A stretch of DNA of 64,000 nucleotides from Dokdonia sp. Dokd-P16. GTDB lineage: Bacteria > Bacteroidota > Bacteroidia > Flavobacteriales > Flavobacteriaceae. This document shows, in pieces, positions 563-64,000 of this stretch. The stretch is taken from NCBI RefSeq assembly GCF_003095655.1, contig NZ_CP029151.1, positions 867,001 through 931,000 on the forward strand, read 5' to 3'. Numbering within the stretch: the first letter of the stretch is position 1; every line of letters starts with the position of its first letter. A program made the translations under genes and the position numbers. The notes under the pieces are model-generated. The model made no database searches. It saw nothing but the letters and a program-made list of their open reading frames with translations, and was not told the origin of the DNA.

Positions 563-578
563 CGCTTTCGCGAAAGCG
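563..578. repeat. Dispersed palindrome copy CGCTTTCGCGAAAGCG
   Basis: Perfect 16-base palindrome between the two MacB-type permease genes, flanked by TA on the left and TG on the right. Confidence 0.9.
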
Positions 579-590
579 TGATAGTTAATT

Positions 591-1835: not shown

Positions 1836-2535
1836 GATTGATTGCCTTTACTTGATTTACGAGTGTATCATCTATAATGCGACCGTCTTTTAGGTTTACA
1901 ATGCGCTTAGTCATCTCTGCAATATCTGGCTCGTGGGTAACAATTAAAATTGTTTTGCCCTCATCATTAATTCCCTGTATGAGATCCATCACCTCGTAAG
2001 ATGTCTTTGTATCGAGTGCTCCCGTAGGCTCATCTGCTAGTAATACCTTTGGGTCACTCGCAAGTGCTCGCGCTATAGCGACACGTTGCTTTTGCCCTCC
2101 AGACATTTCGCTAGGTAAGTGTGTTGCCCATTGTGCAAGACCTACTTTTTCTAGATAATGCATGGCTCTGTCTGTACGTTCTGCACGCTTCATACCTTGG
2201 TAATATAAAGGCATTGAGACATTATCTAGCGCATTTTTATAATTGATAAGATTAAATGATTGAAAAATAAACCCTAAAAATTTATTGCGGTATTGGGCTG
2301 CTATTTTTTCATTGAGGTTTTTAATTGGGACATTATCTAGCGTATAATTACCCTCATCTGCCTCATCAAGCATTCCAAGTATATTTAAAAGCGTAGATTT
2401 TCCAGACCCAGAAGACCCCATGATTGAAACTAGCTCTCCCTCTTTTACAGAAAAGTCTATACCCTTAAGTACGTGAAGGGAGTTGCTCCCCATCTGATAC
2501 GATTTGTGAAGGCCGTTTATTTCAATCATAGTCAA
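1828..2535 (-). CDS. ABC transporter ATP-binding protein (MacB/LolD type)
   Basis: A 235-residue nucleotide-binding subunit with Walker A GSSGSGKST at residues 40-48, a Q-loop (FIFQSFNL), the ABC signature MSGGQKQR near residue 145 and Walker B VLLADEPTGALD. The GALD variant after Walker B and the length fit the LolD/MacB branch. It should power the two permeases downstream. A second ATG two codons in (2529) is an alternative start and matches the family better (MIEINGLHKSY). The gene heads a minus-strand operon; no clear TAnnTTTG promoter is visible directly upstream. Confidence 0.92.
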   Translation of the reverse strand: MTMIEINGLHKSYQMGSNSLHVLKGIDFSVKEGELVSIMGSSGSGKSTLLNILGMLDEADEGNYTLDNVPIKNLNEKIAAQYRNKFLGFIFQSFNLINYKNALDNVSMPLYYQGMKRAERTDRAMHYLEKVGLAQWATHLPSEMSGGQKQRVAIARALASDPKVLLADEPTGALDTKTSYEVMDLIQGINDEGKTILIVTHEPDIAEMTKRIVNLKDGRIIDDTLVNQVKAINHV

Positions 2536-2854
2536 TGGTTTATAACAATATTAACGTTTACCAACTTAAATACTGTGAATTTCTTGTTAAGACTACTTGA
2601 TGTTAAGCAAGCCTTTTACGCTGTAAAATGTATTGAATAGACTGTTTTTGAGCGCTTCTGTTACACTTACATATGTTAGCGTTTTGTTAAAGATATTTTT
2701 ATGCTTTCGCGAAAGTGTAACTCCCTTTTTCTTAAACTATTCTTAAAACGAAACCCTCGAGGTCATATTACCGTAAGTTCTATAGTAGATTCACACATAC
2801 AAACTGAAAACTAACCATCACATAGCATCCATCACCAAAACTATCGCCTTTTTT
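2536..2854. other. Divergent intergenic region, 319 bases
   Basis: This lies between the minus-strand ABC operon and the plus-strand His-rich gene. It holds one palindrome copy (2703-2716). I see no gene, RNA or convincing promoter. The last 66 bases are open in frame with the His-rich gene (from 2789) and would add a longer hydrophobic leader if a non-ATG start is used. Confidence 0.5.
2703..2716. repeat. Dispersed palindrome copy (one-base variant arm)
   Basis: GCTTTCGCGAAAGT, with exact core TTTCGCGAAA at 2705-2714, followed by GTAAC as in several other intergenic copies. Confidence 0.85.
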
Positions 2855-3238: not shown

Positions 3239-3264
3239 TATTCTCACTATGGAATACTGTTTTT
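3237..3264 (+). terminator. Terminator or attenuator between His-rich gene and TonB receptor
   Basis: A 7-bp stem (AGTATTC / GAATACT) with an 8-base loop is followed by GTTTTT. It starts inside the stop codon of the His-rich gene and lies 69 bases before the receptor start. Confidence 0.6.
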
Positions 3265-3332
3265 ATACTCGCCTATCACTAGGCTAGTCATATAAACACG
3301 CATAAATACATTCAAATCTCAAATATAATTAT

Positions 3333-5629: not shown

Positions 5630-5644
5630 CGCTTTCGCGAAAGC
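5630..5644. repeat. Dispersed palindrome copy CGCTTTCGCGAAAGC
   Basis: It lies between the bidirectional terminator and the stop codon of the minus-strand barrel protein. Confidence 0.9.
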
Positions 5645-8307: not shown

Positions 8308-8586
8308 TTAGGATTCAATATGTTCGTCTTGTGACTCAATAGAAGCGTTTTTTCTAGATTTATAAACGAAGTAGAAAACACCACCCACAAGGATATATGG
8401 AATTATCATAAGGTACTTTATTCCATTATTTATTCCTTTGGCAGTACTGTTATCCTCTTCAGATTCTAGAACGGCACGACACATTGCGCACTGAGTAGTA
8501 GATGCTGCCACTGTTGCATTTAAGTCCGCTTTCGCGAAAGCGCAACAGAAAAACATTACAACTAGTACTTGTTTAAGATTTTTCAT
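8308..8586 (-). CDS. Small CxxC membrane protein of the cytochrome oxidase accessory cluster
   Basis: A 92-residue protein with a signal peptide whose end is encoded by a copy of the dispersed palindrome (CAFAKAD), a CAMCR motif (two cysteines, about residues 33-36), and one membrane helix (about 57-76) followed by a positively charged segment. It follows the DUF420 gene directly (stop-to-start spacing zero) and is the last gene of the SCO operon. The position and the CxxC motif suggest a role in oxidase assembly, possibly copper or thiol chemistry, but I do not recognise a characterised family. Confidence 0.65.
   Translation of the reverse strand: MKNLKQVLVVMFFCCAFAKADLNATVAASTTQCAMCRAVLESEEDNSTAKGINNGIKYLMIIPYILVGGVFYFVYKSRKNASIESQDEHIES
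8527..8542. repeat. Dispersed palindrome copy inside coding sequence (AFAKA frame)
   Basis: Perfect 16-mer within the signal-peptide part of the 92-residue CxxC protein, read as AFAKA at the presumed cleavage region. Confidence 0.9.
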
Positions 8587-10630: not shown

Positions 10631-10646
10631 CGCTTTCGCGAAAGCG
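10631..10646. repeat. Dispersed palindrome copy CGCTTTCGCGAAAGCG
   Basis: Perfect 16-mer with the extended flanks TAA left and TAAC right. It lies between the coxIV terminator and the SCO operon promoter. Confidence 0.9.
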
Positions 10647-12142: not shown

Positions 12143-12203
12143 CACTGAACCCTCGATTTATAATCGTTTTAGATACGTGTCAATATAATAATGTATCGCT
12201 AGA

Positions 12204-13742: not shown

Positions 13743-13775
13743 CAAAACGACAAGCATAATAGGTTGTTAAAATTA

Positions 13776-13791
13776 CGCTTTCGCGAAAGCG
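13776..13791. repeat. Dispersed palindrome copy CGCTTTCGCGAAAGCG
   Basis: Perfect 16-mer between the divergent ctaB and MBL hydrolase genes, with extended flanks TTA left and TAAC right. It lies 18 bases upstream of a TACCTTTA element, that is, about where a -33 element would be for the plus-strand gene. Confidence 0.9.
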
Positions 13792-13809
13792 TAACTACAT
13801 CAATACGAC

Positions 13810-15601: not shown

Positions 15602-17731
15602 TTAATAATCATAATACCAATTAAACAAATCTGTTCTAAAACCTATATTGAGCCATAGCGTGCTGGTATCAAATGTATTTGGAGCATCTTGGATATCTGC
15701 CGTTACATTGCGATAGATAGGGTTTGCATATACTTTTAAGTTGGTCGCAGGATTTATCAAATATCCTAGCTCGAGATCTGCATAGAGGCTATTAACCTTA
15801 TTCCCTTGAAAGAATGCAATCCCATCATCTGAAGGTCTATTTTCATCATTGCCATAAATACTTCCTCCATAGTACACTTCATTGATATCTCCTATCTCAA
15901 CACCACGAGCTCCCACAATAAGTTTTGCAGTTCCATACCATCGCTCTCTTTCGTAACGAGCAATCCCTATTAACTCTTTAAAGTTTGCACCCCATTGGTG
16001 TGCTAGCGACTGGTTTGCGTGTCCATAATTAAGTTGGATCTCATTATTAGAATACACATATGGACGCACTTGGTTGTACTCACCTTGCAATATTAAATTC
16101 TTAACCCCAAAGGCATCATAATACTTTGCTCCTATCTGGAAGCTCTGTTTGTTTTTATAGCTTTGATTTCCGCCTATCACATCACTAGCCGAAAACTCAT
16201 CTATAACGACTTGACCATAAACATTTACTCGATCATTCACTTTATACTTTCCGGTTAGTCCTATAAGCGCATTACCACCGCGAGAACCTGTAGAAAACTC
16301 AATAGCACGATAAAAAATCACAGGATTTAAGAAGTTAAAATCAAATCCTCTTCCATTTTCATCTTCCCATATTACAGATTCAAAAAGACCCACGTTAAGT
16401 TTCTTACTTAAGTTCCAACTTAGATAATGGTTACTCATGAACTTTGTTCTAAAAGCACCATCTGCTGTGGTTTCTGGTCTTATATCTCGCAATGATGTCC
16501 AAGTATTAGTATACTTAAATTTCCAAAAGGTAGTATTGAGTTTTAAATACGGAAAGTAACTCGTATTATCACTAAGCAATAACGATCTATAACCATCTCC
16601 TATAAACTGCTTACCGTGACCTAGCTGGATATTAAAATACTTACTAGGGGTGTATGAAATATAACCTTCGGCTACTGGATAATCTAAGTCTCCATTTGTT
16701 CCTTCTTTTGCAATCCCACGGCCAGGCACCACTGCAGGGTTACCACCATCTGGTCTTAATGATCTAGCAAAAGCATCAAAGTATCTAGGAAAGCGTCCTT
16801 GACTCTCATATACAGCAGCAAAAAAGTTGAGCTTCTTTCCTAATCCACCTTGGATATAAACCGCCCGTGTATTATTGTAAGTGAAACTATCAGATTTCAA
16901 CTCATCAGTTTCATATCCCAGTTGCAAATCGGCTGCTGGGTCTAGGGTGATCCAGTAATCCTCTCCTTGTATTTGCACCATGTGCTCGTTAGACCATTTT
17001 CTCCCAAACCACGTTTTCTTCTCTTTCTTGAGTGCGTCTGTCTTTTCTTGAAAATTATAATATGGATTTACAGTTTGATACAGGTAAGGCTTACTTGCCG
17101 TATGCGCATTTGTCCCCACAAGGTTTAACTCTTGATCAAACCTACTATAAACTTGATGCGAGAAAGGAATATTAAGCTGACTGGTATACTCATTTGCTGG
17201 ATTGAATTTTTGATTTTGAATACGGTCATATTCATCCTGCATTGGGTTTTTAAGCGGTGTTTCTTTTTTTGCTTTCGCGAAAGCGTCACCTTTAATATCA
17301 CCACTATTCATCTCACCTATTTTATTACGTGACAGTGGCAATAGCACAGGCATTGTAAATTGCATATAGGTAGGCTCACCGTTATATGTAGCCGGATCAA
17401 TTACAGGTAGTTTATCAAAAACATCTTTCGCCGAAGTCTTAAGCGATGCAAAGACGGCATCTGTGTACAGTAGCTTAAAAGCACCCTCACGAGTAACTTC
17501 AAATAAAATGACCATCTTTCCATCGTAATTCTCTTCATTAACCTCTGCCGGGACTTCAAGATTATCGATTATAAAAGAAATAAAAGTTTCATTAAAACAA
17601 GCCGCAACTTCGCTCACTGGCAAGTCGGCACATTCTGGAAAAACGGGATACTTTTCATAATCACTAGTGGTTACCTGAGCGGTAAGACTACAAGTAGCGA
17701 AAACGAACAAAAGAAATACATATTTATGCAT
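15602..17731 (-). CDS. remB: Gliding motility protein RemB-like outer-membrane protein with an N-terminal TonB-C-like domain
   Basis: A 709-residue protein with a signal peptide (MHKYVFLLFVFATCSLTAQ). Residues about 20-150 follow the pattern of the TonB C-terminal domain of the two genes upstream: YPVFPECADLP, a second Cys, FEVTREGAFKL, then a KLPVIDP...G block. The rest (about 200-709) is a capsule-assembly Wzi-like beta-barrel ending NIGFRTDLFNWYYDY. The identification as RemB rests on gene order (sprA, gcvH, vanZ-like, tonB, remB), which matches what I recall for Flavobacterium johnsoniae. I chose ATG 17731 over 17779 because the signal peptide starts there. One palindrome copy lies inside the gene. 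Confidence 0.72.
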   Translation of the reverse strand: MHKYVFLLFVFATCSLTAQVTTSDYEKYPVFPECADLPVSEVAACFNETFISFIIDNLEVPAEVNEENYDGKMVILFEVTREGAFKLLYTDAVFASLKTSAKDVFDKLPVIDPATYNGEPTYMQFTMPVLLPLSRNKIGEMNSGDIKGDAFAKAKKETPLKNPMQDEYDRIQNQKFNPANEYTSQLNIPFSHQVYSRFDQELNLVGTNAHTASKPYLYQTVNPYYNFQEKTDALKKEKKTWFGRKWSNEHMVQIQGEDYWITLDPAADLQLGYETDELKSDSFTYNNTRAVYIQGGLGKKLNFFAAVYESQGRFPRYFDAFARSLRPDGGNPAVVPGRGIAKEGTNGDLDYPVAEGYISYTPSKYFNIQLGHGKQFIGDGYRSLLLSDNTSYFPYLKLNTTFWKFKYTNTWTSLRDIRPETTADGAFRTKFMSNHYLSWNLSKKLNVGLFESVIWEDENGRGFDFNFLNPVIFYRAIEFSTGSRGGNALIGLTGKYKVNDRVNVYGQVVIDEFSASDVIGGNQSYKNKQSFQIGAKYYDAFGVKNLILQGEYNQVRPYVYSNNEIQLNYGHANQSLAHQWGANFKELIGIARYERERWYGTAKLIVGARGVEIGDINEVYYGGSIYGNDENRPSDDGIAFFQGNKVNSLYADLELGYLINPATNLKVYANPIYRNVTADIQDAPNTFDTSTLWLNIGFRTDLFNWYYDY
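17271..17285. repeat. Dispersed palindrome copy inside coding sequence (AFAKA frame)
   Basis: GCTTTCGCGAAAGCG within the RemB-like gene, read as DAFAKAKKE in the linker between the N-terminal domain and the barrel. Confidence 0.9.
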
Positions 17732-20361: not shown

Positions 20362-20426
20362 CGCTTTCGCGAAAATATTCTTTTTAATAGATTAATGCTT
20401 ACTATTTTCAAGTTTTCGCGAAAGCG
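20362..20426. repeat. Inverted pair of asymmetric palindrome copies
   Basis: CGCTTTCGCGAAAA (20362-20375) and TTTTCGCGAAAGCG (20413-20426) are exact reverse complements 37 bases apart, between sprA and gcvH. Together they could form a 14-bp stem. Confidence 0.85.
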
Positions 20427-28567: not shown

Positions 28568-28719
28568 CGCTTTCGCGAAAATGAAACCACTCAAAACCAT
28601 GTGATTTCATTAAAAACTAATGAATAATCCTTCCTCTTTTCATCAATAAAACCACTCACAAAAAAAGAGGTGTAAACATTACATTTTACACCTCTTTGTA
28701 TCAAGTTTTCGCGAAAGCG
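28568..28719. repeat. Inverted pair of asymmetric palindrome copies flanking the maeB terminator
   Basis: CGCTTTCGCGAAAA (28568-28581) and TTTTCGCGAAAGCG (28706-28719) are the same two arms in the same orientation as the pair at 20362-20426, here 124 bases apart with the maeB terminator between them. Confidence 0.85.
28664..28697 (-). terminator. Terminator of maeB
   Basis: A 13-bp stem AAAGAGGTGTAAA / TTTACACCTCTTT with an 8-base loop and a T-run on the minus strand. Confidence 0.88.
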
Positions 28720-31121: not shown

Positions 31122-32075
31122 CTATTTAAAATCTAATAATTGCGTTAAGATATCTACGTTTTGAGGAAGCCTGCCTACATGCTGTAATTTGATTGCAGCT
31201 AGTGACAGCGCAACTTTAAGACAACGTTCGATTTCATATTCTTTAATGTATGCAAATAAAAAGCCGCTCCAGAAGGCATCTCCTGCACCCGTAGCGTCAA
31301 GAATATTTTCTACCCTTGCTGCTGGTAGTTCAATTATTTCTTGAGATTTGTTTTTACGCTTTCGCGAAAGCTTAACCCCATCAGAGCCTAGCGTGAGACA
31401 AACGAGCTCAACACCAAAATCACTATGAAAGAAATCAAATATCTCATCATGAGATTTACGTTCTCCAAACAAGCGCTCCATATCATCTTCGCTTATTTTC
31501 ACTAGCGGATTATATGAACAGTATTGTCTAAAAGTCTCCATCGCCTTTTCTCTCTTTGGAAAAATACGTGGAGAATAATTAAGATCAATACTCAAGGTAC
31601 ATCCTGCCTCAAATGCTTTCTTTGCTTTATTCAAGATAGTAGTGCGAGCAGGATTTTTACTTAATGCAAAAGCGGTGGTGTGAAAAATGGAAGTCTTTTC
31701 AATAAGCTCATCTGGAATTTGATCTTCGGTGATTTTCGTATCTGCATAGCGATAGGCAATAAAATCTGGTGTTCCCGTTGTTTTCGAAACAAAGATTACA
31801 CTCGTAGGATTTACAGCATCTGTTCGCACAAGATCTGTTTGCACTCCATTCTCTGCAAGTTTTTCTTCTATATAAATACCTAGACCATCGTCACCTCTAG
31901 TAGCTGCAAGCTTTACATTCATGCCTAATCTAGATAAATTCATAGCCACATTTGTCGGGCTACCACCTAGATACCTGTGATAATCTCTAGTTTGATCAAT
32001 TCGCACTTCCTTTTGGTGACCTATGAAGTCTATTAAAACCTCACCTACACATATGATATCGATATCTCTACTCAC
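31122..32075 (-). CDS. PfkB family carbohydrate kinase (fructokinase-like)
   Basis: A 317-residue ribokinase/PfkB-fold sugar kinase. It has the N-terminal GGSPTNVAMNLSRLG signature (about residues 37-51) and the catalytic DATGAGDAF motif (about 263-271) with the Asp base. Residues in the first half (GEVLIDF) are typical of fructokinases. It probably phosphorylates the sugar imported by the transporter encoded 44 bases upstream in the same operon; fructose is the best guess. A palindrome copy encodes KLSRKRKN in a variable loop at about residues 236-243. Confidence 0.85.
   Translation of the reverse strand: MSRDIDIICVGEVLIDFIGHQKEVRIDQTRDYHRYLGGSPTNVAMNLSRLGMNVKLAATRGDDGLGIYIEEKLAENGVQTDLVRTDAVNPTSVIFVSKTTGTPDFIAYRYADTKITEDQIPDELIEKTSIFHTTAFALSKNPARTTILNKAKKAFEAGCTLSIDLNYSPRIFPKREKAMETFRQYCSYNPLVKISEDDMERLFGERKSHDEIFDFFHSDFGVELVCLTLGSDGVKLSRKRKNKSQEIIELPAARVENILDATGAGDAFWSGFLFAYIKEYEIERCLKVALSLAAIKLQHVGRLPQNVDILTQLLDFK
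31357..31371. repeat. Dispersed palindrome copy inside coding sequence (LSRKR frame)
   Basis: CGCTTTCGCGAAAGC within the PfkB kinase gene, read on the minus strand as KLSRKRKN. Confidence 0.9.
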
Positions 32076-32119
32076 GTCTTTTTAGAATTTTGATACTTAT
32101 AAATGATGTAAACTACTAA

Positions 32120-34509: not shown

Positions 34510-35835
34510 CTATCTTGGTATAAATTCTAGCAACGCATTTTTAGGCTTTAAGGTAATAAGCGGTAAAATTTCAATAGGTGTGTTTTTTGGGGTAATCTTA
34601 TACATACTCACCATTTCTGTAATGGCTAAGATCATTTCATACATAGCAAAATTATTCCCTATACACATTCTAGGTCCTGCGCCAAAAGGAAAATATGCCG
34701 GATGTTTCATCCCTGCGTTATCATCAAACCTCGTAGGATCAAATTGATCTGCTCGTTCCCAAAAGTCCTTATGCTTATGTATCTCTATCACAGAAAACAA
34801 TAAGTTAGAACCTGCAGGAACCTCCATTCCGTTATGATCATCATCTTCAATATTCACTCGATCTATAAAATATGCTGGTGGATACATACGCATGGTTTCC
34901 TCCAGCACCTGCTTGGTAATGGTACAATGTCTTAAAAACTCATTAAGGCTTATGGAGTTCGCTTTCGCGAAAGCGTATTCTTTATAAATTTTATCTTGCC
35001 AGATAGGATTTCTAGCAAGCAGTTCGGCTGTAAAAGTAAGTGCATTTGAGGTAGTCTCATGACCCGCCGAAAATAAAATGAGAATTTCATCAATAAGCTG
35101 TTTATCGTCCATAAATCCACCATCTTCATATTGAGAATCTAGCAGCATATCAAGTAAATCACCTGGCTTGTCACCGCTGTCTTTGCGCTCTTGTACGAGT
35201 TCCTTTAGAATCACCCTCGCCTCTTTTGTTAGAGCAAGATGTTTATCTATAGGTCCACCATATTTAAAATACCATGCCTTAAATGGCTGGCGCAGTTCTT
35301 TTACAAGCATCTTTTGTGCTTGCTCTGTGATGTGTTGCAGTCTATTAATTTTATCTCGATCTACATCTGTTTTAAACAATGCCTTAACGACAGTCATAAA
35401 TGCAAGATCATTAAAAACCTCAAATACATCAAAAGGCTTATGCATTACAATACGCAATAGTTCTTTTTGAATTACCTCATGCATTACATCAAGTAATTGA
35501 GCTAGTTGCTTTTTATGAAAGGCTGGTTGTATGAGTTTGCGTTGTTTTTTCCAGTGGTCACCTTCTGCCGTGAGCAGACCTTCCCCAACATATTTTGCTA
35601 AGTCCTTAGTTTGGATAGGTGATTTACTATAATTCCGTTGATTTTTCTGAAGTGCATATCTAGCAAATTCTGGATCTCTTGAGAAAACTACATCATTACC
35701 AAAACCAAGCTTTAGTTTAAAAGTGTCACCTTTTAACTCAAAATTTTCCTTATGAAATGGCAATGGGTTTTTAAGAATACTTCCTGCATTTGCAAGAAAT
35801 TTAAACACGGATACTGCTGGAATTTTATCTGGCAT
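34510..35835 (-). CDS. Cytochrome P450
   Basis: A 441-residue soluble bacterial P450. It has the I-helix oxygen-activation motif [12 protein letters not shown], the K-helix ExxR (EETMRMYPP) and the heme-binding loop [16 protein letters not shown] with the cysteine ligand near residue 391. It resembles the CYP102/CYP4-like fatty-acid group in overall layout, but the substrate cannot be assigned. No ferredoxin or reductase gene is adjacent. queG follows directly. One palindrome copy lies inside the gene (EYAFAKANS, about residues 285-293). Confidence 0.92.
34960..34975. repeat. Dispersed palindrome copy inside coding sequence (AFAKA frame)
   Basis: Perfect CGCTTTCGCGAAAGCG within the P450 gene, read as EYAFAKANS in a surface segment before the K-helix. 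Confidence 0.9.
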
Positions 35836-37067: not shown

Positions 37068-37083
37068 CGCTTTCGCGAAAGCG
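37068..37083. repeat. Dispersed palindrome copy CGCTTTCGCGAAAGCG
   Basis: Perfect 16-mer followed by TAAC, 7 bases from the coxA terminator, upstream of ruvB. Confidence 0.9.
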
Positions 37084-41533: not shown

Positions 41534-42229
41534 TTATTCGTGACCTTGAGCATTCATTGGCTCTGATTCTGGACCAGGAATTGCATCTACTGCACCCTCG
41601 TTTAAATCAACATCAATTTTACCCTCAGTCATCTCAGAGATAATTTCAGAGGCTGTAAATTCCTTCTGTGGCTTACCATCTAATGCGTCTTTAAGACCCA
41701 TTACATAATGATCAACCATCCAAAGTTCATCTTCTGTCATTTGAGATGCATAGGACCCCATAGAGTTAATACCATAATACATAACATGGTATACACTACC
41801 TTCAGTAATAGCTCTACCAGCATCATTGTAAGCAGGCACTCCTAAAATCTTTTCGCGTTTTGCGAGATTCCCTTTACCATCACCTTTAACTCCGTGACAG
41901 ATTGAACAGTAAATATTATAAAGTTCGTTACCCTTCACATAATTATCTTCTGTAAGAGGAAGTGGATTTTTCAAATTCGCTTTCGCGGAAGCTTTACCTT
42001 CTGGAGTATTTTCAAAATCGTAAGGCATCCAACCTCTCATTACAGATCCCTCTGCTGGTTCTAGTGCTTCATAACCATCAGGAAAAACCTCGTACTTACC
42101 ATAAGTCTCATAACCTACAGATTCATACATATTAGGCATATACTGATAGTTAGGTTTATTATCATCTTGGCAAGAGATTACACTTGCAAAGGCAATTAAC
42201 AAAACAGCTATTTTAAATATATTCTTCAT
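41534..42229 (-). CDS. actE: Alternative complex III subunit ActE (monoheme cytochrome c lipoprotein)
   Basis: A 231-residue exported protein with a lipoprotein-like signal (SVISCQDD, Cys about residue 20) and one heme-binding motif CSICH (about residues 112-116), with a candidate axial Met further on (MTEDELW region). ActE is the mobile or docked cytochrome c of alternative complex III that hands electrons on. The operon position is canonical. A one-base variant of the palindrome lies in the gene (KASAKANLK). Confidence 0.92.
   Translation of the reverse strand: MKNIFKIAVLLIAFASVISCQDDNKPNYQYMPNMYESVGYETYGKYEVFPDGYEALEPAEGSVMRGWMPYDFENTPEGKASAKANLKNPLPLTEDNYVKGNELYNIYCSICHGVKGDGKGNLAKREKILGVPAYNDAGRAITEGSVYHVMYYGINSMGSYASQMTEDELWMVDHYVMGLKDALDGKPQKEFTASEIISEMTEGKIDVDLNEGAVDAIPGPESEPMNAQGHE
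41978..41992. repeat. Variant dispersed palindrome inside coding sequence
   Basis: CGCTTTCGCGGAAGC, one base off the exact core, in actE, read as ASAKA. It is likely a decayed copy. Confidence 0.7.
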
Positions 42230-44570: not shown

Positions 44571-47500
44571 TTATGCTTCTTCTGTATTACGTACCATTGT
44601 CTGGTAGAATACATTAGGTTTTGTTCCTACATGCTCGAGCAAGTGATACATACGATCATCTGTTCTAAGCGTTTCAATTTCACTCTCCTTATCGTTTATA
44701 TCTCCAAAGGCAAGAGCTCCACTTGTACAAGCGTTAGAGCAAGCTGTAGCAAACTCTCCGTCTTTTACTTTACGTCCATCACGCTTTGCATCAAGAATAG
44801 TTTTCTGTGTCATTTGAATACACATAGAACATTTCTCCATAACTCCTCGTGAACGAACTGTTACGTCTGGGTTAATTACCATACGACCAAGGTCGTTATT
44901 CATGTGGTAATCAAACTCATCATTCCCATTATATAGGAACCAGTTAAAACGACGCACTTTATATGGACAGTTATTTGCACAATATCTAGTACCTACACAA
45001 CGGTTGTACGTCATGTGGTTTTGACCTTGCTTACCGTGTGCAGATGCTGCAACCGGACAAACTGTTTCACATGGTGCGTGGTTACAGTGCTGACACATGA
45101 TAGGCTGGAAAGCAACCTGTGGGTTTGCCGCTGGATCTTCTAGCTCACCAAATCCTCCAAGAGAACCTTGATCACCACCTAAACCACTAAAATCATTTTT
45201 CTTAGTATCATCAAGCTCAAACGTCTCCTCAGAAGAGTAATATCTATCAATACGTAACCAGTGCATATCACGACTACGACGTATTTCTGACTTACCTACA
45301 ACAGGAACGTTGTTCTCTGCGTGACAAGCAATAACACAAGCACCACAACCGGTACATGCATTCAGGTCAATAGCAAGATTGAAGTGATGCCCAATAGAAC
45401 GATCAAATTCATCCCAAAGATCAACTTCTGGTGAAGTTACTTCATACTCTATATGACCTTTACTCACTTCTGGCATTACATTCCAAGAGTGCTTATCTTT
45501 TGTATTAAAGATTTCAAGTGTAGTTTCTTTTACAATATCACCACGACCCATCAATGTATTATGAAGTTGCACAGATGCAAATTCATGTACACCACCTACT
45601 TTTTCAATAGATACTTTTTGAGTTGTCTGGAAGTTCTGCATTAACGGGAATGCATTTACACCCGTTTGCATCTCCTCTTGAATTCCATTTTTACGACCAT
45701 ACCCTACTGCAAGCCCCACTGACCCTTTAGCCTGACCCGGCTGGATCATTACAGGAACATTCTCTAAGGTAACACCGTTTACAGTAACATTTGCATAATG
45801 ACCATTAAGACCACCATTTGCATTGTGACGTGCTTCTGTAAAGAATGTACTTCTATCAAACCACAATCCTTTCTCTTTGGCATCTGCCTCAGACATTGTC
45901 AAGTAGTTATCCCAAGTACAACGTGTTAACGGATCAGGCATTTCTTGCAACCAAGGGTTGTTTGCCTGTGTACCGTCACCCATTGATGTCATTGTGTACA
46001 ACGTCAATTCAAAATCACCAGTACCTTCTTGTAATGTGCTAGACAACCCAGCATCTGAAGTGATTGATGTATTTGAAGGTGTAACCGCTTTCGCGAAAGC
46101 GTTAGTCTCAACAACACCAGCTTGAACAGACTTATTAAAAGGAAGTCCAGCCGAAGTCATTGTATCCTTAAGATACTCGTAATATGTTTTATCCTCACCC
46201 ATCCAAGTCAACAAACTCTGTTGAAATTGACGTGTGTTGAAAATTTCTTTTATCGTAGGTTGCTGAAGGCTTACCTCTCCCATTTTAATCTGCACATCTC
46301 CCCAAGATTCTAGGTAATGTGGCACAGGAGCTATATGTGTAGACAAAGCTGCAGTCTCGTCTGCTCTTATAGAACAAGCAACTGAAACTTCTACCTTCTT
46401 AAGCCCTTCTGTAAATTCTGAAGCATTAGGTAAACTATATGCTGGGTTTACACCCGCCATAATAAGAGTTCCTACTTGCCCAGCATTCATATCTTTTACA
46501 AGCTGCATCATCTTGCGCGCATCTCCAGAGCGAGTCATCTTAGGCTTAGCAGTGTCCATTACAGACTTACCAGCATTAAAATCTAGCGCTATTTTCTGAG
46601 TTGCCACGTCCTGAACTCCTGTTATAAGAAGTCCGCTATCTCCAGCCGCAAGTAATGCCTTACGAGCTTGAGCAACTTTTGCCTTTATTCCTTCTGGCAA
46701 ACCAGATACAGAACCACCAGCAAGAGCTTGTACTATTAATTTTTGTTGTGATGGTGTAGATGGTACACGTACATCTGCATTTGCACCAGAAAGAGACATG
46801 TTTGCCTCAAACTGGAAATGCTTAGACATCTTTCCATTTTTAGGAACACGCTTCTTACCGTAAGCAGAATCATATCCACCACCATTCCAATCTCCTACAA
46901 AGTCTGCACCTACAGCAACTATAACATCTGCCTTAGCAAAGTCATAATCCGGTAATGCACGGAAACCGTATTTCATTTCAAAAGCATCCAAAGCAAATTG
47001 TTCCCCAGCAGCATCGTACGCTACGTGCGATACATTAGGAAACTTAACTTTAAACTCTTCTATAAGTTTATCTGTAGAAGGACTTGCAAATGTTTGCGTA
47101 AGCAACACCGCCTTCTTTCCTCCTTGAAGTGCACCTATAACACCCTTATCTATATCTGACCAAGAAACTTCTTCACCAGCAGCAGTAGGGAACTGCGCAC
47201 GATTAGTATCATACATTCCTAAAACAGATGCATGAACACGAGCATTTGCTCCAAAACCACCTTTAGCTAGATCGTTATTTTCAATCTTAATAGGGCGACC
47301 TTCACGTGTCTTTACAAGAACACTTGCAAAGTCAAAACCATCTGCAATTGTTGTTGCATAATAGTCTGCTACACCAGGAACAATTTGCTCTGGCTGCACT
47401 ACGTAAGGAACAGATTTAATAACAGGACCTTCACAAGCTGCGAGGGAAGCTGCGGCAGTAGAGAAACCTACATACTTCAAGAAATCACGACGTGTAGTTT

Positions 47501-49251: not shown

Positions 49252-49647
49252 ATGAACGGCATTACGTTTAAAAACATACAATTAACACTAGCCGCCGCTG
49301 TGTTTTCATTCGCTTTCGCGAAAGCACAAACCGCACAATCCACTATAAATCAAGATGAAAGAATTACAGAACTTCTTGATTTGAAAAGCAGTCTGGAAAA
49401 GGAAGGGAAGCTAACAGATAGATATAAAATTCAACTCTATTCTGGAAGCTTAAATACAGCAAGCTCAACATTAAAAAAGTATAGAAATCGCGTAGGGACA
49501 TGGTCTTCGTCTATAAAACACGAAACCCCTAACTACAAAGTATGGATAGGGAGTTTTAGAAACAGACGTGAGGCAGACAGAGCTCTTATGGAAATCAAGA
49601 AAGACTTTCCAAGCGCTTTCATTTTTAAACCAGATGGTCGCGACTAA
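49252..49647 (+). CDS. SPOR-domain secreted protein
   Basis: A 131-residue protein with a signal peptide whose end is encoded by a palindrome copy (SFAFAKAQ), a short linker, and a C-terminal SPOR-type domain (about residues 55-129; YKIQLYSGSLNTASSTLKKYR, then YKVWIGSFRNRREADRAL). SPOR domains bind denuded peptidoglycan and are usual in cell-division and wall-remodelling proteins. This one is free-standing and periplasmic. It is divergent from the act-cox operon and ends in its own terminator. Confidence 0.85.
   Translation: MNGITFKNIQLTLAAAVFSFAFAKAQTAQSTINQDERITELLDLKSSLEKEGKLTDRYKIQLYSGSLNTASSTLKKYRNRVGTWSSSIKHETPNYKVWIGSFRNRREADRALMEIKKDFPSAFIFKPDGRD
49311..49325. repeat. Dispersed palindrome copy inside coding sequence (AFAKA frame)
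   Basis: CGCTTTCGCGAAAGC at the signal-peptide end of the SPOR protein, read as FAFAKAQ. Same position type as the copy at 8527-8542. Confidence 0.9.
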
Positions 49648-49882: not shown

Positions 49883-49900
49883 TATAATTAGCCTGTAATA

Positions 49901-49914
49901 CTTTCGCGAAAGCG
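49901..49914. repeat. Dispersed palindrome copy CTTTCGCGAAAGCG
   Basis: Intergenic copy between the infB terminator and the 55-codon frame. Confidence 0.88.
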
Positions 49915-52846: not shown

Positions 52847-54079
52847 CTATTCTTCAAATTCTGCCTTGAGGATTCTCATCACATCAAGAACTGTTTCTTC
52901 TTCTAAATCTGTACGACGTACTAGATCTTCTGCATCTTGCTCTAATACGCTTCTTGCGGTATCAAGACCAATTTTCGCGAAAGCTTCAATCACCCACGCT
53001 TCTATCTCATCTGAAAATTCTGTAAGCTCAACGTCTTCCTCTACACCTTCTCTGTAAACGTCAATCTCATATCCAGTAAGCTGTCCGGCCAAACGAATGT
53101 TATGACCACCGCGACCTATAGCCTTACTCACCTCTTCAGGTTTAAGAACTGCTTGTGCGGTTTTATTTTCCTCATTAATCTTAATACTTGTAATACGCGC
53201 AGGGCTTAAAGCTCTAGTAATATACAAGTTAAGGTTTGTTGTGTAATTTATTACATCAATATTCTCATTTCCTAACTCACGTACAATACCATGAATACGA
53301 GAACCCTTCATACCTACACAGGCTCCTACTGGATCAATACGATCATCATAAGAGTCTACTGCTACTTTTGCCTTCTCCCCTGGTATACGCACAACATTCT
53401 TGACAGTAATTAGACCGTCAAAAACTTCTGGTATTTCAGACTCAAATAATTTTTCTAAGAACAATGGAGATGTACGAGACATAACAATTGAAGGTTTATT
53501 TCCCTTCAACTCTACGCTTTCGATTACTCCACGTACATTTTCTCCTTTACGGAAAAAATCTGAAGGAATCTGACGATCTTTTGGTAAGATAATCTCGTTT
53601 CCGTCATCATCAAGTAAAATGATCGCTCTATGTCTAATATGGTGCACCTCTGCAGTATACAACTCACCTTCAAGCTCTTTAAATTGCTTGTAAATGTTAG
53701 TATTATCATGCTCATGAATCTTGCTAATTAAATTTTGACGCAATGCCAAAATAGAACGTCGACCTAAGTCAAAAAGCTTCACCTCTTCAGAAACATCTTC
53801 TCCTACTTCAAAATCTTCCTCAATCTTGCGAGCATTAGTTAATGAAATCTCTTCATTATCATCTTCAACCTCACCATCTGCCACAACCACACGGTTACGC
53901 CAGATTTCAAGATCTCCTTTATCAGGATTTATAATAATATCAAAGTTATCATCACTACCAAAACGTCTCTTTAACGTACTTCTGAACACCTCTTCTAAGA
54001 TGGCCATTAAGGTTACACGATCTATTAATTTATCGTCCTTGAATTCTGAAAAAGAATCGATTAACGCTAAATTCTCCAT
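52847..54079 (-). CDS. nusA: Transcription termination/antitermination protein NusA
   Basis: A 410-residue NusA with an N-terminal RNA polymerase-binding domain (about 1-125), an S1 domain (about 135-200, YTAEVHHIRHRAIILL) and two KH domains (VGACVGMKGSRIHGIVRELG and EVSKAIGRGGHNIRLAGQL). It lacks the acidic C-terminal repeats found in Escherichia coli, as is usual in Bacteroidetes. It modulates pausing, termination and antitermination. It lies 11 bases after rimP. A palindrome copy gives EAFAKIGLD in the C-terminal part. Confidence 0.96.
   Translation of the reverse strand: MENLALIDSFSEFKDDKLIDRVTLMAILEEVFRSTLKRRFGSDDNFDIIINPDKGDLEIWRNRVVVADGEVEDDNEEISLTNARKIEEDFEVGEDVSEEVKLFDLGRRSILALRQNLISKIHEHDNTNIYKQFKELEGELYTAEVHHIRHRAIILLDDDGNEIILPKDRQIPSDFFRKGENVRGVIESVELKGNKPSIVMSRTSPLFLEKLFESEIPEVFDGLITVKNVVRIPGEKAKVAVDSYDDRIDPVGACVGMKGSRIHGIVRELGNENIDVINYTTNLNLYITRALSPARITSIKINEENKTAQAVLKPEEVSKAIGRGGHNIRLAGQLTGYEIDVYREGVEEDVELTEFSDEIEAWVIEAFAKIGLDTARSVLEQDAEDLVRRTDLEEETVLDVMRILKAEFEE
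52972..52984. repeat. Dispersed palindrome copy inside coding sequence (AFAK frame)
   Basis: TTTTCGCGAAAGC in nusA, read on the minus strand as EAFAKIG; the exact 10-base core is kept. Confidence 0.85.
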
Positions 54080-55678: not shown

Positions 55679-55693
55679 GCTTTCGCGAAAGCG
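55679..55693. repeat. Dispersed palindrome copy GCTTTCGCGAAAGCG
   Basis: Intergenic copy directly after the terminator T-run, followed by TAAC. Confidence 0.9.
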
Positions 55694-59104: not shown

Positions 59105-59138
59105 CTCCTGCTAGTTTTAATTGTTATTGTATTTTTTT

Positions 59139-59152
59139 CGCTTTCGCGAAAA
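59139..59152. repeat. Dispersed palindrome copy, asymmetric form CGCTTTCGCGAAAA
   Basis: This is the same arm as at 20362 and 28568, here without a partner, between two minus-strand stress genes. Confidence 0.85.
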
Positions 59153-59163
59153 CGTGAAATAAT

Positions 59164-59616: not shown

Positions 59617-59653
59617 CATAAAAAAACCCGATCTAATTAAAGATCGGGTTTCT
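59617..59653 (-). terminator. Terminator after the GLPGLI gene, copy of the tRNA-Gln terminator
   Basis: Stem AACCCGATCT / AGATCGGGTT with loop AATTAA and a T-run on the minus strand. It matches 60763-60800 over the whole 37 bases apart from one A in the A-run. Confidence 0.9.
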
Positions 59654-59670
59654 ACAACTTACAAATAGAC

Positions 59671-60396
59671 TTAATAAGACAGCCGATCGGCTAGAAGCTT
59701 ATTAAAATCTTCTTGGGATATAGCTTTCTCCTTAAAATCTTTTAATGGAAAAGATTTTATTTTTTCGATAGATTTTGCTGAAATAGAATAATTTACACTT
59801 TTACTCTTCACCTCCACCTTCAAGATTAAACCAGGTAAACCACTATAACTTCCTGGACCAGATTGCAAAGTCAAATCTGGGGTAAAATAAGCATCAACTT
59901 CTCTATAAAAAACACCTTTAGAATTTTTTATAGTTTCTCGGGTTGATGCTTTTATACATTTTTTACCCAAGATTGTATATTCTTCATCTGTTATGATCCA
60001 TTTTTTACTCTCTATAGGCTTTTCAATTATGAAATTTTTACCTAGGACACTCTTCTGATTGTATTGAAATTTCTCAGTAAAATCACTCTGCACATAACCA
60101 CTAAAACCAACTGTAGTAATAATTAATTCCCTAGCATTAAAAGGATCATTTGGGAGCGCTATACGCTCTTCACCTTCAAATACACTAGTCTTATAATTTG
60201 TTTCTAAAAAAAAATCAACCTTATTTATGTTGCTACTCGCCTCATTAATGGCAATTTCCAAACTATTGAAGGTAGAATTATCAACACTCTTACCAGTATT
60301 CATATTAAAATTATCAATTACGTACGTGACTCTGTAGTTCTGGGAGAAACATTGACTTATTTGAGCCAGCATAAGAAATAAAACAAAATATTTCAT
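59671..60396 (-). CDS. GLPGLI family protein
   Basis: A 241-residue exported protein with a signal peptide (MKYFVLFLMLAQISQCFSQ) and the family-defining motif in SYSGLPGLILKVE (about residues 190-202). GLPGLI proteins are a Bacteroidetes-specific secreted family of unknown function, often found in multiple copies. Base composition is more AT-rich by eye than in the neighbours. It lies in the segment flanked by the duplicated terminator, after a small secreted protein gene. Confidence 0.85.
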   Translation of the reverse strand: MKYFVLFLMLAQISQCFSQNYRVTYVIDNFNMNTGKSVDNSTFNSLEIAINEASSNINKVDFFLETNYKTSVFEGEERIALPNDPFNARELIITTVGFSGYVQSDFTEKFQYNQKSVLGKNFIIEKPIESKKWIITDEEYTILGKKCIKASTRETIKNSKGVFYREVDAYFTPDLTLQSGPGSYSGLPGLILKVEVKSKSVNYSISAKSIEKIKSFPLKDFKEKAISQEDFNKLLADRLSY

Positions 60397-60410
60397 AAAA
60401 CAATTTTATT

Positions 60411-60448
60411 AAAAAAAGAAAGCAAGAACACACCCATGCTCTTGCTTT
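60411..60448 (-). terminator. Terminator after the 73-residue gene
   Basis: Perfect 9-bp stem AAAGCAAGA / TCTTGCTTT with a 12-base loop, followed by seven T (one C between) on the minus strand. Confidence 0.75.
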
Positions 60449-60473
60449 ATTGTAATTATTATCAAAATGAAAA

Positions 60474-60695
60474 TTATTCCATGCATTTTTCGAATGCAGT
60501 AGTCGCTATATCAAATGCCACTTCATCTGGAAACCCAGCAAATTCAAAATAGGTAGCAACAGAATTTGCCAAGATCAAACATTCATAACCTGATCTTCTT
60601 TCAACCTCACTTTCAATCTCCGTTGCCTGATTCATCGGAAATGCAGAACCTACAAAAAGCCCACAAAAGGCAATACTTAAAATAACTTTTTTCAT
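60474..60695 (-). CDS. Small secreted protein of unknown function
   Basis: A 73-residue protein with a signal peptide (MKKVILSIAFCGLFVGSAFP, about 1-20), a Glu-rich stretch and two cysteines in the mature part (YECLILANS and FEKCME), suggesting one disulfide. No family is recognised. It sits between a copied tRNA-Gln terminator and the GLPGLI gene, has its own TAnnTTTG element upstream and its own terminator downstream. Real gene likely, function open. Confidence 0.65.
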   Translation of the reverse strand: MKKVILSIAFCGLFVGSAFPMNQATEIESEVERRSGYECLILANSVATYFEFAGFPDEVAFDIATTAFEKCME

Positions 60696-60732
60696 TTTTT
60701 AAAAAATTAGCGTTAATACTCTATGTACCAGC

Positions 60733-60740
60733 CAAACATA
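60733..60740 (-). promoter_or_regulatory. Putative -7 element TATGTTTG of the small secreted protein gene
   Basis: Exact TAnnTTTG on the minus strand, 37 bases before the ATG at 60695 and downstream of the tRNA-Gln terminator. Confidence 0.45.
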
Positions 60741-60762
60741 CAATAAAAGTTTGATTTTTTTT

Positions 60763-60800
60763 CATAAAAAAAACCCGATCTAATTAAAGATCGGGTTTCT
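60763..60800 (-). terminator. Terminator of tRNA-Gln
   Basis: Stem AACCCGATCT / AGATCGGGTT with loop AATTAA and eight A on the plus strand (T-run on minus), starting 2 bases after the tRNA. A second near-identical copy lies at 59617-59653. Confidence 0.9.
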
Positions 60801-60802
60801 TG

Positions 60803-60875: not shown

Positions 60876-60895
60876 CTATTTTGTGATAGCGAGTG

Positions 60896-60926: not shown

Positions 60927-61125
60927 CATTATTTTAAAAAAATCTCATTTTTTTAAAATAAAAATTCTTCTTGAAGCACGCTATGTAATACAAGCATTTG
61001 AATTTGAATTAAATATGACATTCCGAGACAGAAAAAATTTTTTTAAGCCCAATAATTAATGACTCTATGACGTTACCACAAATCACACGTATTGCTTAAC
61101 TTCGTCCCTTTACAAAATATACAAT

Positions 61126-64000
61126 ATGACCGACTTCAATTTTGCGAAGTATAATAAGATATTAGGCTGGACAGTATTTGCCATTGCCCTTATTGTTTAC
61201 TCTCTTACTGTAGAGCCTACAGCGAGTTTCTGGGATGCCGGTGAGTACATATCCACCTCCTCAAAACTAGAAATAGGTCACCCACCTGGAGCACCACTTT
61301 ACCAAATACTAGGAGCCTTTGTTTCTATTTTTGCACCAGATGCAACCTACATAGCACTTGCTGTAAATTATCTTTCGTGCCTCACAAGTGCGTTTACCAT
61401 ACTTTTTATGTTTTGGTCGCTCACTTTATTGATCACGAGATCGCTTGCTATTAACGCAGAACTTATTACAAAAACAAAACAACAAGCAATTCTTGCTAGT
61501 GCTGCCATAGGTGCGCTTGCATTTGCTTTTACAGATAGCTTTTGGTTTAATGCCGTAGAAGCAGAGGTATATGCCCCAGCAGCCGTGGTACTCTCTCTTT
61601 TATTCTATCTTGGATTGTTGTGGGAGCGTGACATGCACGAACCTAGAGGAAATCGCTGGCTCATATTAATATCTTTTATTGTAGGTCTATCCTTTGGTAT
61701 TCACTTTATGGGATTACTTACCATCCCTGCAATTGGCTTACTTTATTTCTTCAAGAACACAGAAAAAATAACTGCCAAAAATCTCATCATAGCACTGGTT
61801 ATCGTTGTAGCCATCTTGATGTTTATTTTTAAGTTATTACTTCCTTATACATTATCATTATTTGGGTACTTAGAAGTATTCTTCGTAAACTCTATGGGAC
61901 TACCTTTTAATAGTGGTACCATTATAGCAGGTTTACTTCTTGTAGGGTTATTTGTTTACGGATTTAAGCTTTCGCGAAAGCGTAACAAACCACTCCTTAA
62001 CACCATGCTACTTTGCATGCTTTACATCTTTATAGGTTTTTCTAGCTGGATGATGCTGCCTATACGTGCAAATGCTGGTACAACTATTAATGAGAACAAT
62101 CCGTCAAATGCTCGATCACTACTTGCTTATTACAACCGTGAGCAATATGCCGAAACAAAACTCTTTTATGGACCTCAATTTACCTCAGACTATTCTGGAC
62201 TAGATCCAGATACGCCATACCTCGACAAACCGAAGTTATACGAGAAAGACGAAGCGCTTGGAAAATATGTTGTGGTAAATGAGTGGCGCAATGCAAAGCA
62301 AAATCTTGATGATGCGCATAATGCTATCTTACCAAGAATGTGGAGCCCAGAAAATAATGCAAATTACATGCAGTATACGGGTCCTTTAAAATTCAGTATC
62401 AAGTATGATCCTGATATGCCAGAGGAAGATCGCCAGTATCTTCAAGAAGTTGTAACTCAGTTCAAGATAGATTACAGAGACGGAAAGGTAAATTATGAAG
62501 GTTATGATGCCTTTCTAAAGAGCCAGATAGGAAGTTACCTAGATGTAGAAAAACCATCCTTTGGAGCAAACATGAATTATATGTTCAGCTTCCAGTTTGG
62601 GTATATGTACTGGCGTTACTTCATGTGGAACTTTGTAGGAAGACAAAATGATATACAAGGTAAAGGCGATGACTTTAACGGAAACTGGATTTCTGGAATA
62701 GACTTTATAGACAGTATGTTCTTAGGACCTCAAGACAATTTACCGTCTGATGTTGCTGATAACAAAGCTCGTAACACTTATTTCTTTCTTCCGCTATTAT
62801 TGGGATTATTAGGTCTTCTTTTTCACGCAAGTAAAGACTGGAAACGTTTTGCAGTATTACTAGTCTTCTTCTTATTTACAGGTCTTGCACTAAAAGTGTA
62901 CTTAAATGAACGTGCTTTTGAACCTCGTGAGCGTGATTATGCGCTAGTGGGATCCTTCTATGTCTTTGCGATGTGGATAGGTTTTGGTGTCTATGCGCTA
63001 TTTGATATTGTAAAAGATTTTATAAAACCTAAAATAGCAATGCCTATTGTGGCTGTTATATGTTTACTAGCTGCTCCTGTATTACTTGCCTCACAAAACT
63101 GGGATGACCATGATCGCTCAGGAAGGAAAACGGCACTTGCCATGGCAAAGAAGTACCTAGACTCTGTAGATGAGAATGCCATTATATTCACAATAGGTGA
63201 CAACGATACGTTTGCTCTTTGGTATGCACAAGAAATTGAAGGATATCGTACTGATGTGCGTATTGTAAATACTAGTTTGATTAATACAGATTGGTACTAC
63301 GACCAGATGAAGAGAGCGGCATATAAAAGTCCTCCAGTGCCTAGTTCGCTTACACATGATAAGTATGCAGCATCTAACCGTGAGGCACTATTTTATCAAG
63401 AAACTAAAGACTCTATTATTCCTATCTCACAATGGATGAGTTTTGTTGCTAGCGATGATCCTAGAACAAAGGTAGAGTATGCAAAAGGGCAGTTTTTTAA
63501 CACCTTCCCTAGCAAAAAGGTGCGCATTCCAGTAAATAAGGAAACCGTACTCAAGAACAAGATTGTCCCTATGGATGATGCAGATAGCATTGTACCATAC
63601 ATAGACATTGAACTTAAAGGGAATGTTCTTTACAAGAACAGGCTGCTTATGCTCGACATTATTGCTAGCAATAACTGGGAACGACCTATTTACTTTACTG
63701 GTGGAAGCTTTGGTGATGATGACTACTTATGGATGAAGGACTACCTACAACTAGATGGTGTAGCTTATAAACTTATCCCAATAAGGACTCCTATCGATCC
63801 TCGTAATCCTTATGATATGGGTCGCGTAGATGCAGATAAGATGTATGACATCGTAAAGAAATGGTATTGGGGCAACAGTGGAAGCCCAGATATCTATCAC
63901 GATCGTGAGACACGCACTAATGCTATTACCTATAGAGGTAACATGGCACGTCTAGTGGAGCAACTTCTCGCAGAAAACAAGCCAGAAAAAGCAAAGGAAA
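61126..64000 (+). CDS. DUF2723 family membrane protein, protein O-mannosyltransferase-like (partial, 3' end outside window)
   Basis: The ATG at 61126 opens a frame that stays open to the right edge (958 residues visible). The N-terminus has the DUF2723 pattern SFWDAGEYISTSSKLEIGHPPGAPLY with an acidic pair in the first extracytoplasmic loop, as in GT-C-fold glycosyltransferases. About twelve helices follow (to about residue 650), then a large C-terminal soluble part with a DNDTFALWY stretch. Members are thought to transfer sugars from lipid carriers to secreted proteins in Bacteroidetes. A palindrome copy encodes FKLSRKRNK between two helices. Confidence 0.88.
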   Translation, partial: MTDFNFAKYNKILGWTVFAIALIVYSLTVEPTASFWDAGEYISTSSKLEIGHPPGAPLYQILGAFVSIFAPDATYIALAVNYLSCLTSAFTILFMFWSLTLLITRSLAINAELITKTKQQAILASAAIGALAFAFTDSFWFNAVEAEVYAPAAVVLSLLFYLGLLWERDMHEPRGNRWLILISFIVGLSFGIHFMGLLTIPAIGLLYFFKNTEKITAKNLIIALVIVVAILMFIFKLLLPYTLSLFGYLEVFFVNSMGLPFNSGTIIAGLLLVGLFVYGFKLSRKRNKPLLNTMLLCMLYIFIGFSSWMMLPIRANAGTTINENNPSNARSLLAYYNREQYAETKLFYGPQFTSDYSGLDPDTPYLDKPKLYEKDEALGKYVVVNEWRNAKQNLDDAHNAILPRMWSPENNANYMQYTGPLKFSIKYDPDMPEEDRQYLQEVVTQFKIDYRDGKVNYEGYDAFLKSQIGSYLDVEKPSFGANMNYMFSFQFGYMYWRYFMWNFVGRQNDIQGKGDDFNGNWISGIDFIDSMFLGPQDNLPSDVADNKARNTYFFLPLLLGLLGLLFHASKDWKRFAVLLVFFLFTGLALKVYLNERAFEPRERDYALVGSFYVFAMWIGFGVYALFDIVKDFIKPKIAMPIVAVICLLAAPVLLASQNWDDHDRSGRKTALAMAKKYLDSVDENAIIFTIGDNDTFALWYAQEIEGYRTDVRIVNTSLINTDWYYDQMKRAAYKSPPVPSSLTHDKYAASNREALFYQETKDSIIPISQWMSFVASDDPRTKVEYAKGQFFNTFPSKKVRIPVNKETVLKNKIVPMDDADSIVPYIDIELKGNVLYKNRLLMLDIIASNNWERPIYFTGGSFGDDDYLWMKDYLQLDGVAYKLIPIRTPIDPRNPYDMGRVDADKMYDIVKKWYWGNSGSPDIYHDRETRTNAITYRGNMARLVEQLLAENKPEKAKE
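61967..61982. repeat. Dispersed palindrome copy inside coding sequence (LSRKR frame)
   Basis: AGCTTTCGCGAAAGCG in the DUF2723 gene, read as KLSRKRN on the plus strand and followed by TAAC as in intergenic copies. Confidence 0.9.

Follow-up and report, generated by a model that had tools for sequence, protein, structure and literature searches.

A highly iterated palindrome of Dokdonia and its possible role as a Chi-like signal

Introduction

Few signals iterated over whole genomes are known, and most of them have no proven role. The signal considered here, the palindrome TTTCGCGAAA, came to notice in a stretch of 64,000 nucleotides from Dokdonia sp. Dokd-P16 (contig NZ_CP029151.1, positions 867,001 to 931,000 of the forward strand), called the window throughout; the genus Dokdonia is marine and has species in culture. 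Several described systems resemble it in part. The Chi sites of RecBCD and AddAB, said to lie about one per 3-5 kb in E. coli, share with it this density, the apparent directional half-modules and a 3'-flank context, which reportedly mattered in an E. coli Chi study; the Dokdonia site differs in being palindromic, and hence bidirectional, in being much longer, and in that no replication polarity was seen in a small sample. The parS sites of ParB and the binding sites of Noc are also palindromes, reportedly with the same TTTC...GAAA frame, whereas the Dokdonia word has about 1000 copies and is neither few in number nor excluded from the terminus. Repetitive extragenic palindromic (REP) elements mobilised by REP-associated tyrosine transposases (RAYT) are likewise present in many palindromic, often intergenic copies, in contrast to which the Dokdonia word has no repeat body, no accompanying Y1 transposase, and sites in open reading frames (ORFs) too.

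Like the highly iterated palindrome HIP1 (GCGATCGC) and the other HIPs of cyanobacteria, the Dokdonia word is a genome-wide iterated palindrome of unknown function, situated both in ORFs and between genes and limited to certain lineages. It is a different word, as the preliminary description of the window had stated, with a core of 12-14 bp rather than 8 and a density of about 300 per Mb rather than the 1000-2000 per Mb given for HIP1 in the available part of PMC4390886, which in that part describes neither even spacing nor a strand-asymmetric flank for HIP1. With the uptake signal sequences (USS) and DNA uptake sequences (DUS) of Pasteurellaceae and Neisseriaceae it shares a copy number of about 1000, fairly even spacing and specificity to a lineage, and it differs from them in being palindromic, near-invariant and present on phage contigs. 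Even spacing of uptake sequences is credited to Karlin et al. in the available part of PMC1939737, which elsewhere calls them less evenly spaced than compaction would require. The near absence of imperfect copies, the even spacing, a footprint of about 50 bp and the presence on phages and on islands resembling integrative and conjugative elements (ICEs) go beyond HIP1, and the spacing, the flank, the genus-wide spread and the phage and island copies also go beyond the preliminary description. Scarce near misses, a flank edge near +25 bp, putative directional half-sites, spacing of about 3 kb, sharply separated sets of genomes with and without the word, and copies on phages and ICEs provide handles on a signal of this kind.

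Abundance and form of the palindrome

The preliminary description had counted TTTCGCGAAA 21 times in the window, together with one further copy altered at a single base, and had taken the GC content to be near 38%. All three statements hold, the variant being TTTCGCGGAA at 41981 and the GC content 37.8%, and 100 dinucleotide shuffles of the window contain the word 0.05 times on average. The source genome, a single contig of 3,623,447 bases (3.62 Mb), carries the 10-mer 1074 times and its reversed control 10 times. Sampling of this chromosome, by means of the window and 40 evenly placed stretches (864 kb in total, with 256 cores), yields 452 occurrences of the 12-mer TTTCGCGAAAGC on both strands where an order-4 Markov model predicts 0.44, an observed-to-expected ratio above 1000, and the most over-represented words of 8, 10, 12 and 14 nucleotides in the sample are built on TTTCGCGAAA. 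The word is neither at chance level in the genome nor confined to the 64 kb, the two outcomes that had been named as refuting it; it is a genuine, highly iterated, genome-wide palindrome of Dokdonia. No publication describing it in this genus was found, judged by titles and in a literature that largely leaves out subscription journals.

None of the sampled cores is without a GC arm: of the 256, 196 have two and 60 have one. When sequences of the form GC-N10-GC in the 864 kb are sorted by their distance from the core, 196 are exact, while 7, 1 and 7 differ from it at one, two and three positions; with the requirement relaxed to one GC arm, 46 one-off cores stand against 452 exact arms. Unlike the core, the arm positions show some tolerance for deviation. 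The palindromes of the window, described earlier as mostly 14-16 bp long and reaching 22-24 bp, prove to be shorter: a length of 14 bp is attained by 13 of 21, 16 bp by 7 of 21, 22 bp by a single copy (13779) and 24 bp by none.

Spacing, placement and conservation

The sites are spaced more evenly than chance placement would give. The coefficient of variation (CV) of the gaps in the chromosome sample is 0.65, as against 0.99±0.05 in random placements that keep the numbers of coding and intergenic sites, with none of 2000 simulations reaching so low a value; pairs closer than 1 kb number 24 (68±6 simulated), and gaps longer than 6 kb number 14 (25 simulated). Short gaps are rare among the first 100 listed genome sites too (9 below 1 kb vs 22.7). 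Typical spacing is about 3 kb, 15 of the 20 gaps in the window measuring 2.1 to 3.6 kb. The corresponding blocks of four relatives lean the same way, with P between 0.02 and 0.055 in each, though as orthologues of the window they are not independent tests. Sites are present in 40 of the 41 sampled stretches, the presumed terminus among them.

By crude gene calls, 130 of the 256 sites fall outside genes, that is, in 12.7% of the DNA, while the remaining 126 lie inside ORFs in all three frames, one of which is favoured (66, 31 and 29). In the window itself 14 of 21 copies are intergenic by these calls, so that the earlier count of thirteen was right in substance and off by one. Density is highest between convergent genes, at 2.14 per kb; divergent gaps, at 1.1 per kb, come near to tandem ones.

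Comparison of the window with the relatives G006, G008 and G016 reveals identical cores at 20 of 21, 20 of 21 and 15 of 17 aligned sites, respectively. At intergenic sites, core identity exceeds flank identity both in G016 (0.99 vs 0.70) and in the relative G004 (0.76 vs 0.66), and the bases of the flank footprint described below are not conserved one by one (0.67 identity in G016). Several losses between relatives are single-base changes. The single gain observed lies near window position 12178; in G016, and likewise in L045, a near twin of it, the site takes the place of a stretch of about equal length. No clean site-length insertion was found at gained or lost places, some alignments with G004 having small ambiguous gaps. 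Our reading is that purifying selection holds the core and that sites turn over at greater evolutionary distance without transposition.

The flank footprint and its direction

Beyond the palindrome, the 3' side of each strand is poor in G out to about +25, which brings the whole footprint to about 50 bp. On the 451 GC-armed sides in the source genome, counted from the dyad, the frequency of G is 0.055-0.083 at +10 to +25, 0.12 at +26 to +29 and 0.15-0.18 further out, so climbing gradually rather than abruptly after +25, and C falls across the same zones from 0.26 to 0.20 to 0.18. Past the arm, the outward-reading strand favours GTAA in Dokdonia (679 arms that are not independent, since related strains contribute orthologous sites) and GRAA in genus g11, followed in each case by avoidance of G; in g11 the G content stays low as far as about +35, and genus g210 (25 arms) displays a weaker depletion. 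The G-poor flank is seen at coding and intergenic sites alike, and in both orientations relative to genes.

Sites with a single arm indicate how this flank is organised. Across 59 of them the frequency of G is 0.084 on the GC-armed side and 0.136 on the opposite one, with far backgrounds of 0.168 and 0.142, and the arm-less side shows some depletion of G as well, at +11 to +13. From this asymmetry we read the site as two directional half-modules with one common core.

Distribution among genomes

The UbiA protein places the source organism in Dokdonia, its best matches being records of this genus, and two further genomes of the genus have a UbiA identical to that of Dokdonia sinensis and of Dokdonia pacifica. 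Every one of the 18 Dokdonia genomes examined, some of them incomplete, carries CTTTCGCGAAAG, in 383 to 937 copies. Among 397 genomes of the family Flavobacteriaceae, six exceed 100 copies of TTTCGCGAAAGC per strand, namely two of Dokdonia, three of genus g11 and one of genus g210, and the remainder hold at most 23 per strand; of 395 genomes sampled from the phylum, the source genome alone exceeds 6 copies of the 14-mer. The three genera decorated with the word are not grouped in trees of UbiA and AddB, and a single clade is not rejected (p-AU of the approximately unbiased test 0.08). Of the copies counted for CTTCCGCGGAAG in Mesonia, three occupy a single orthologous place and the fourth lies elsewhere. 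No comparable word of another genus was found in eight groups of named loci (palindromes) or seven groups (all words), a search of limited reach, each of these loci covering a single neighbourhood of about 20 kb in the genome.

Phages and mobile elements

Among the matches listed, several undecorated genomes carry a few copies within blocks of 10 to 60 kb, and others (G082, G356 and G657) have scattered copies. A survey of 17 stretches from eight genomes with clustered sites identified conjugative-element genes (RteC or a coupling protein, tested directly or by homologous cluster) in five of the eight, and no conjugation gene was shown in the other three within these stretches. Also seen on these stretches were a tyrosine integrase, DUF5712, SSB, an RND pump, an outer-membrane efflux protein and a P-type ATPase, a gene content like that of ICEs whose cargo is probably for metal efflux. 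The flank is present at the island sites (G 0.103 vs 0.171). One island gene, compared in five copies that are 70 to 99.9% identical, retains both of its sites in four copies and has one decayed site in the fifth. An efflux gene is 99.9% identical between L298 of genus g107 and L301 of genus g121, and this identity points to recent transfer of a site-bearing element between the two genera.

In a viral collection, at least 120 stretches contain the 14-mer, and among the matches listed 14 of 120 have two or more sites, their 14 contigs (324 kb) holding 54. Proteins of six of these contigs were examined, with head, tail or packaging genes in four, a primase and an integrase in one, and only families of unknown function in one; integrases occur on two of the six. 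Sites on the 14 contigs have the flank (G 0.112 vs 0.213). Single copies in phages with a GC content of at least 0.45, regarded as chance occurrences, are without it (G 0.279 vs 0.242 and 0.309 vs 0.294), and those in phages below 0.45 are mixed (0.145 vs 0.161).

What may read the site

Of the classes of explanation that the preliminary description had listed, a signal recognised by protein is judged the most likely. The facts ask for a reader that would be strict for 12-14 bp, sensitive to the strand of the flank and two-directional, that would serve about 3 kb, and that would matter to chromosome, phage and ICE. What fits best, though it can be put forward only tentatively, is a DNA-level address kept by selection and read by a DNA-tracking or DNA-processing machine, most likely a Chi-like, bidirectional recombination or repair signal for a helicase-nuclease such as AddAB, where we infer both the protein and its action. 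The source genome has genes for both AddA and AddB, close together with two ORFs between them. The site is a dyad-symmetric unit of about 50 bp, which we take to be composed of two overlapping directional half-modules on the common core TTTCGCGAAA; to the core are added a GC(G) arm, to one side or to both, and about 16 nt past the arm in which G is avoided on the 3' side, the same bases appearing C-poor and T/G-rich on the 5' side of the opposite strand. Whichever way a tracking enzyme came, it would run into an active half-module; sites with one arm would act from one side, and a site per ~3 kb would cap the amount of DNA processed before a signal. The T/G-rich 5' side of a half-module would suit the loading preference of RecA. 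Phages and ICEs may carry the site because their DNA meets the same machine.

Several points weigh against a Chi-like signal. All 27 family genomes tested, including 18 undecorated ones, have AddB, so AddAB alone does not account for the distribution, and no protein confined to decorated genomes was found in a comparison that fell short of full proteomes. Chi in E. coli is polarised along replication; no such polarity was seen for one-armed sites, 33 of 60 sharing the same polarity, which is about chance in a small sample with origin and terminus guessed from GC skew. A palindrome of 12-14 bp with long flanks is longer than every Chi known to us (5-8 nt). Identical cores are found at just 6 of 15 aligned sites in G004, and over the first 100 listed genome sites, which include a 23-kb empty array, evenness is borderline (CV 0.86, the 5% quantile of random placements being 0.845). 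That array, at about 90-113 kb of the source chromosome (L006 and L374), has no palindrome site from 89,946 to 113,221, so that DNA without sites is tolerated once integrated. The phage contigs were chosen for having at least two sites, and 12 of the 14 share sequence at 64 to 100% identity; with a single representative of each linked group, 3 contigs with 12 gaps remain, on which spacing is even only at P 0.03 (CV 0.53 vs 0.84±0.18), and with 12 of 14 contigs linked the phage evidence is genuine but comes from few independent lineages.

Nearly as likely as a Chi-like signal, and close behind it in fit, is the binding site of a chromosome-architecture protein, either nucleoid-associated or a domain organiser, that would bind about every 3 kb, phages and ICEs carrying the site as residents of such chromosomes. 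The presence of sites in almost every sampled stretch, presumed terminus included, their even spacing, the dyad symmetry of the footprint and the concentration of half of them in the small non-coding fraction would all suit such a protein. Relatives nevertheless do without the motif, ICE copies retain their sites in undecorated hosts, and the largely one-sided flank at one-armed sites hints at directional reading. A candidate protein was not found either: the source genome encodes one protein with ParB_N (PF02195), the same number as in 17 of 18 undecorated genomes, and a ParB or Noc paralogue was rejected as the reader on that ground.

A DNA uptake sequence for transformation is doubtful. Preferential uptake or retention of word-bearing DNA would let the word accumulate in a few genera and in the DNA they exchange, and the copy number and even spacing recall the uptake sequences of Pasteurellaceae and Neisseriaceae; the location of sites both in ORFs and between genes and a word common to several genera also speak for it. 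Phage contigs bear the word, however, and 196 of 256 sites are two-armed palindromes, whereas uptake sequences are not palindromes according to the available part of PMC1939737. Slightly more doubtful again is a self password, by which a host machine in Dokdonia and the two other genera would degrade or silence DNA lacking the site over several kilobases; the chromosome, its resident phages and ICEs would then converge on one evenly spaced, near-invariant signal, and the system would distinguish self from non-self by sequence, needing no DNA modification. Either a self signal of this type or a Chi-like one would show mobile DNA adapting to a host machine for DNA processing.

It is improbable that the word is of HIP type, made and held by an orphan methyltransferase together with biased mismatch repair. 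The comparison with HIP1 made in the preliminary description stands only for abundance, the word is an iterated palindrome with a CGCG centre, and the available part of PMC4390886 attests such a class in cyanobacteria. The likeness fails for near misses, since one-offs of HIP1 are frequent in many cyanobacteria according to the same part of that source and scarce here (7 vs 196 exact), and repair bias would not obviously produce even spacing or a G-poor flank. C5 methyltransferase (PF00145) is absent from 9 of 16 decorated genomes, the source genome included, and present in only 7, which leaves no common C5 enzyme; the earlier suggestion of a modified-DNA site fails to this extent for C5 methylation, adenine families not having been searched genus-wide.

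A transcription terminator or regulatory hairpin is less probable still. The peak in density between convergent genes would agree with termination, and the single-stranded folds of three two-armed sites lie below most shuffles; against this, divergent gaps are about as dense as tandem ones, half of the sites (126 of 256) are in ORFs, and many shuffles fold at least as well as the two one-armed sites tested. Complementarity between the left and right flanks does not exceed that of shuffled pairs or what composition would give, which argues against an extended hairpin, and a hairpin function was rejected on this composition-level pairing and the weak folds of the two one-armed sites. Every sampled site contains GCGAAAGC, which we take to be an extra-stable DNA mini-hairpin, a candidate unneeded to explain the flank. 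Least probable of all is a mobile mini-repeat of REP type or of the miniature inverted-repeat transposable element type, as also proposed earlier, for which speak the many palindromic, partly intergenic copies and against which stand the absence of a Y1_Tnp match (PF01797) in the source genome (5 of 14 control genomes matched), flanks alike in composition and without a repeat body, cores retained at orthologous places, sites in three frames of ORFs, and the lack of clean site-length insertions, small ambiguous gaps with G004 aside.

Sites in the window and further observations

Labels of window sites as intergenic or within an ORF rest on crude gene calls, and conservation of the core refers to G006, G008, G016 and G004. 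Site 1 (GCTTTCGCGAAAGC, 564..577) is two-armed and intergenic, and site 2 (GCTTTCGCGAAAGT, 2703..2716), also intergenic, has its GC arm intact on the left only and a core one base off in G008. Two-armed sites follow at 5631..5644 (site 3), between convergent genes, at 8528..8541 (site 4), intergenic and with the same core in all four relatives, and at 10632..10645 (site 5), intergenic and retained in three of the four. Site 6 (13773..13794), flanked by divergent genes, is the longest palindrome of the window at 22 bp and keeps its core in all four relatives; site 7 (17271..17284) is two-armed and within an ORF.

Two close pairs of one-armed sites come next, 20365/20414 and 28571/28707, in which the intact arms are directed away from each other. 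The first consists of site 8 (20363..20376; GC on the left only) and, 49 bp from it, site 9 (20412..20425; GC on the right only), whose core is retained in all four relatives; the second consists of site 10 (28569..28582; left only) and, at a distance of 136 bp, site 11 (28705..28718; right only). More close pairs with a one-armed member occur in the sampled stretches.

Further along, site 12 (31358..31371) is two-armed and within an ORF, while the two-armed sites 13 (34961..34974, within a cytochrome P450 gene), 14 (37069..37082, intergenic) and 15 (46087..46100, within a Fer4-domain gene) retain their cores in all four relatives. The one-base variant (41981..41990) falls between sites 14 and 15, in a gap of 9 kb. 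Site 16 (49312..49325) is two-armed and within an ORF, and site 17 (49900..49913) one-armed and intergenic. Site 18 (52971..52984), one-armed and within an ORF, is not at the matching place in G016 and G004. The last three are site 19 (55679..55692), two-armed and intergenic, site 20 (59140..59153), one-armed and intergenic, and site 21 (61968..61981), two-armed and within an ORF left open-ended by the crude calling.

An Rfam scan of the window returned a tRNA and nothing else. An identical 34-nt repeat adjoining tRNA-Gln stands at 59620 and 60767, where G006 and G008 have a single copy and lack the ~1.1 kb between, so that 59620-60800 resembles a small insertion flanked by direct repeats. Near 32076-32132, G006 and G016 each have about 3.3 kb extra relative to the window.

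Elsewhere in the source genome, the site-free array at ~90-113 kb has a tyrosine recombinase (Phage_integrase) at one end, followed by mostly single-ORF units on one strand that are parted by repeats, with 11 copies of an element containing GCCGCACTCGCTTTATG or a near version of it; by this organisation the cassette array appears to be integron-like. The stretch at 720-740 kb (L013), with a GC content of 0.34, has just 2 palindrome sites and encodes a type I-like methylase (HsdM) region and a Schlafen/AlbA_2 protein. Genes at the two contig ends (L005 and L044) have N-terminal sequences that match when compared by eye, which would reflect either a real duplication or redundant assembly ends.

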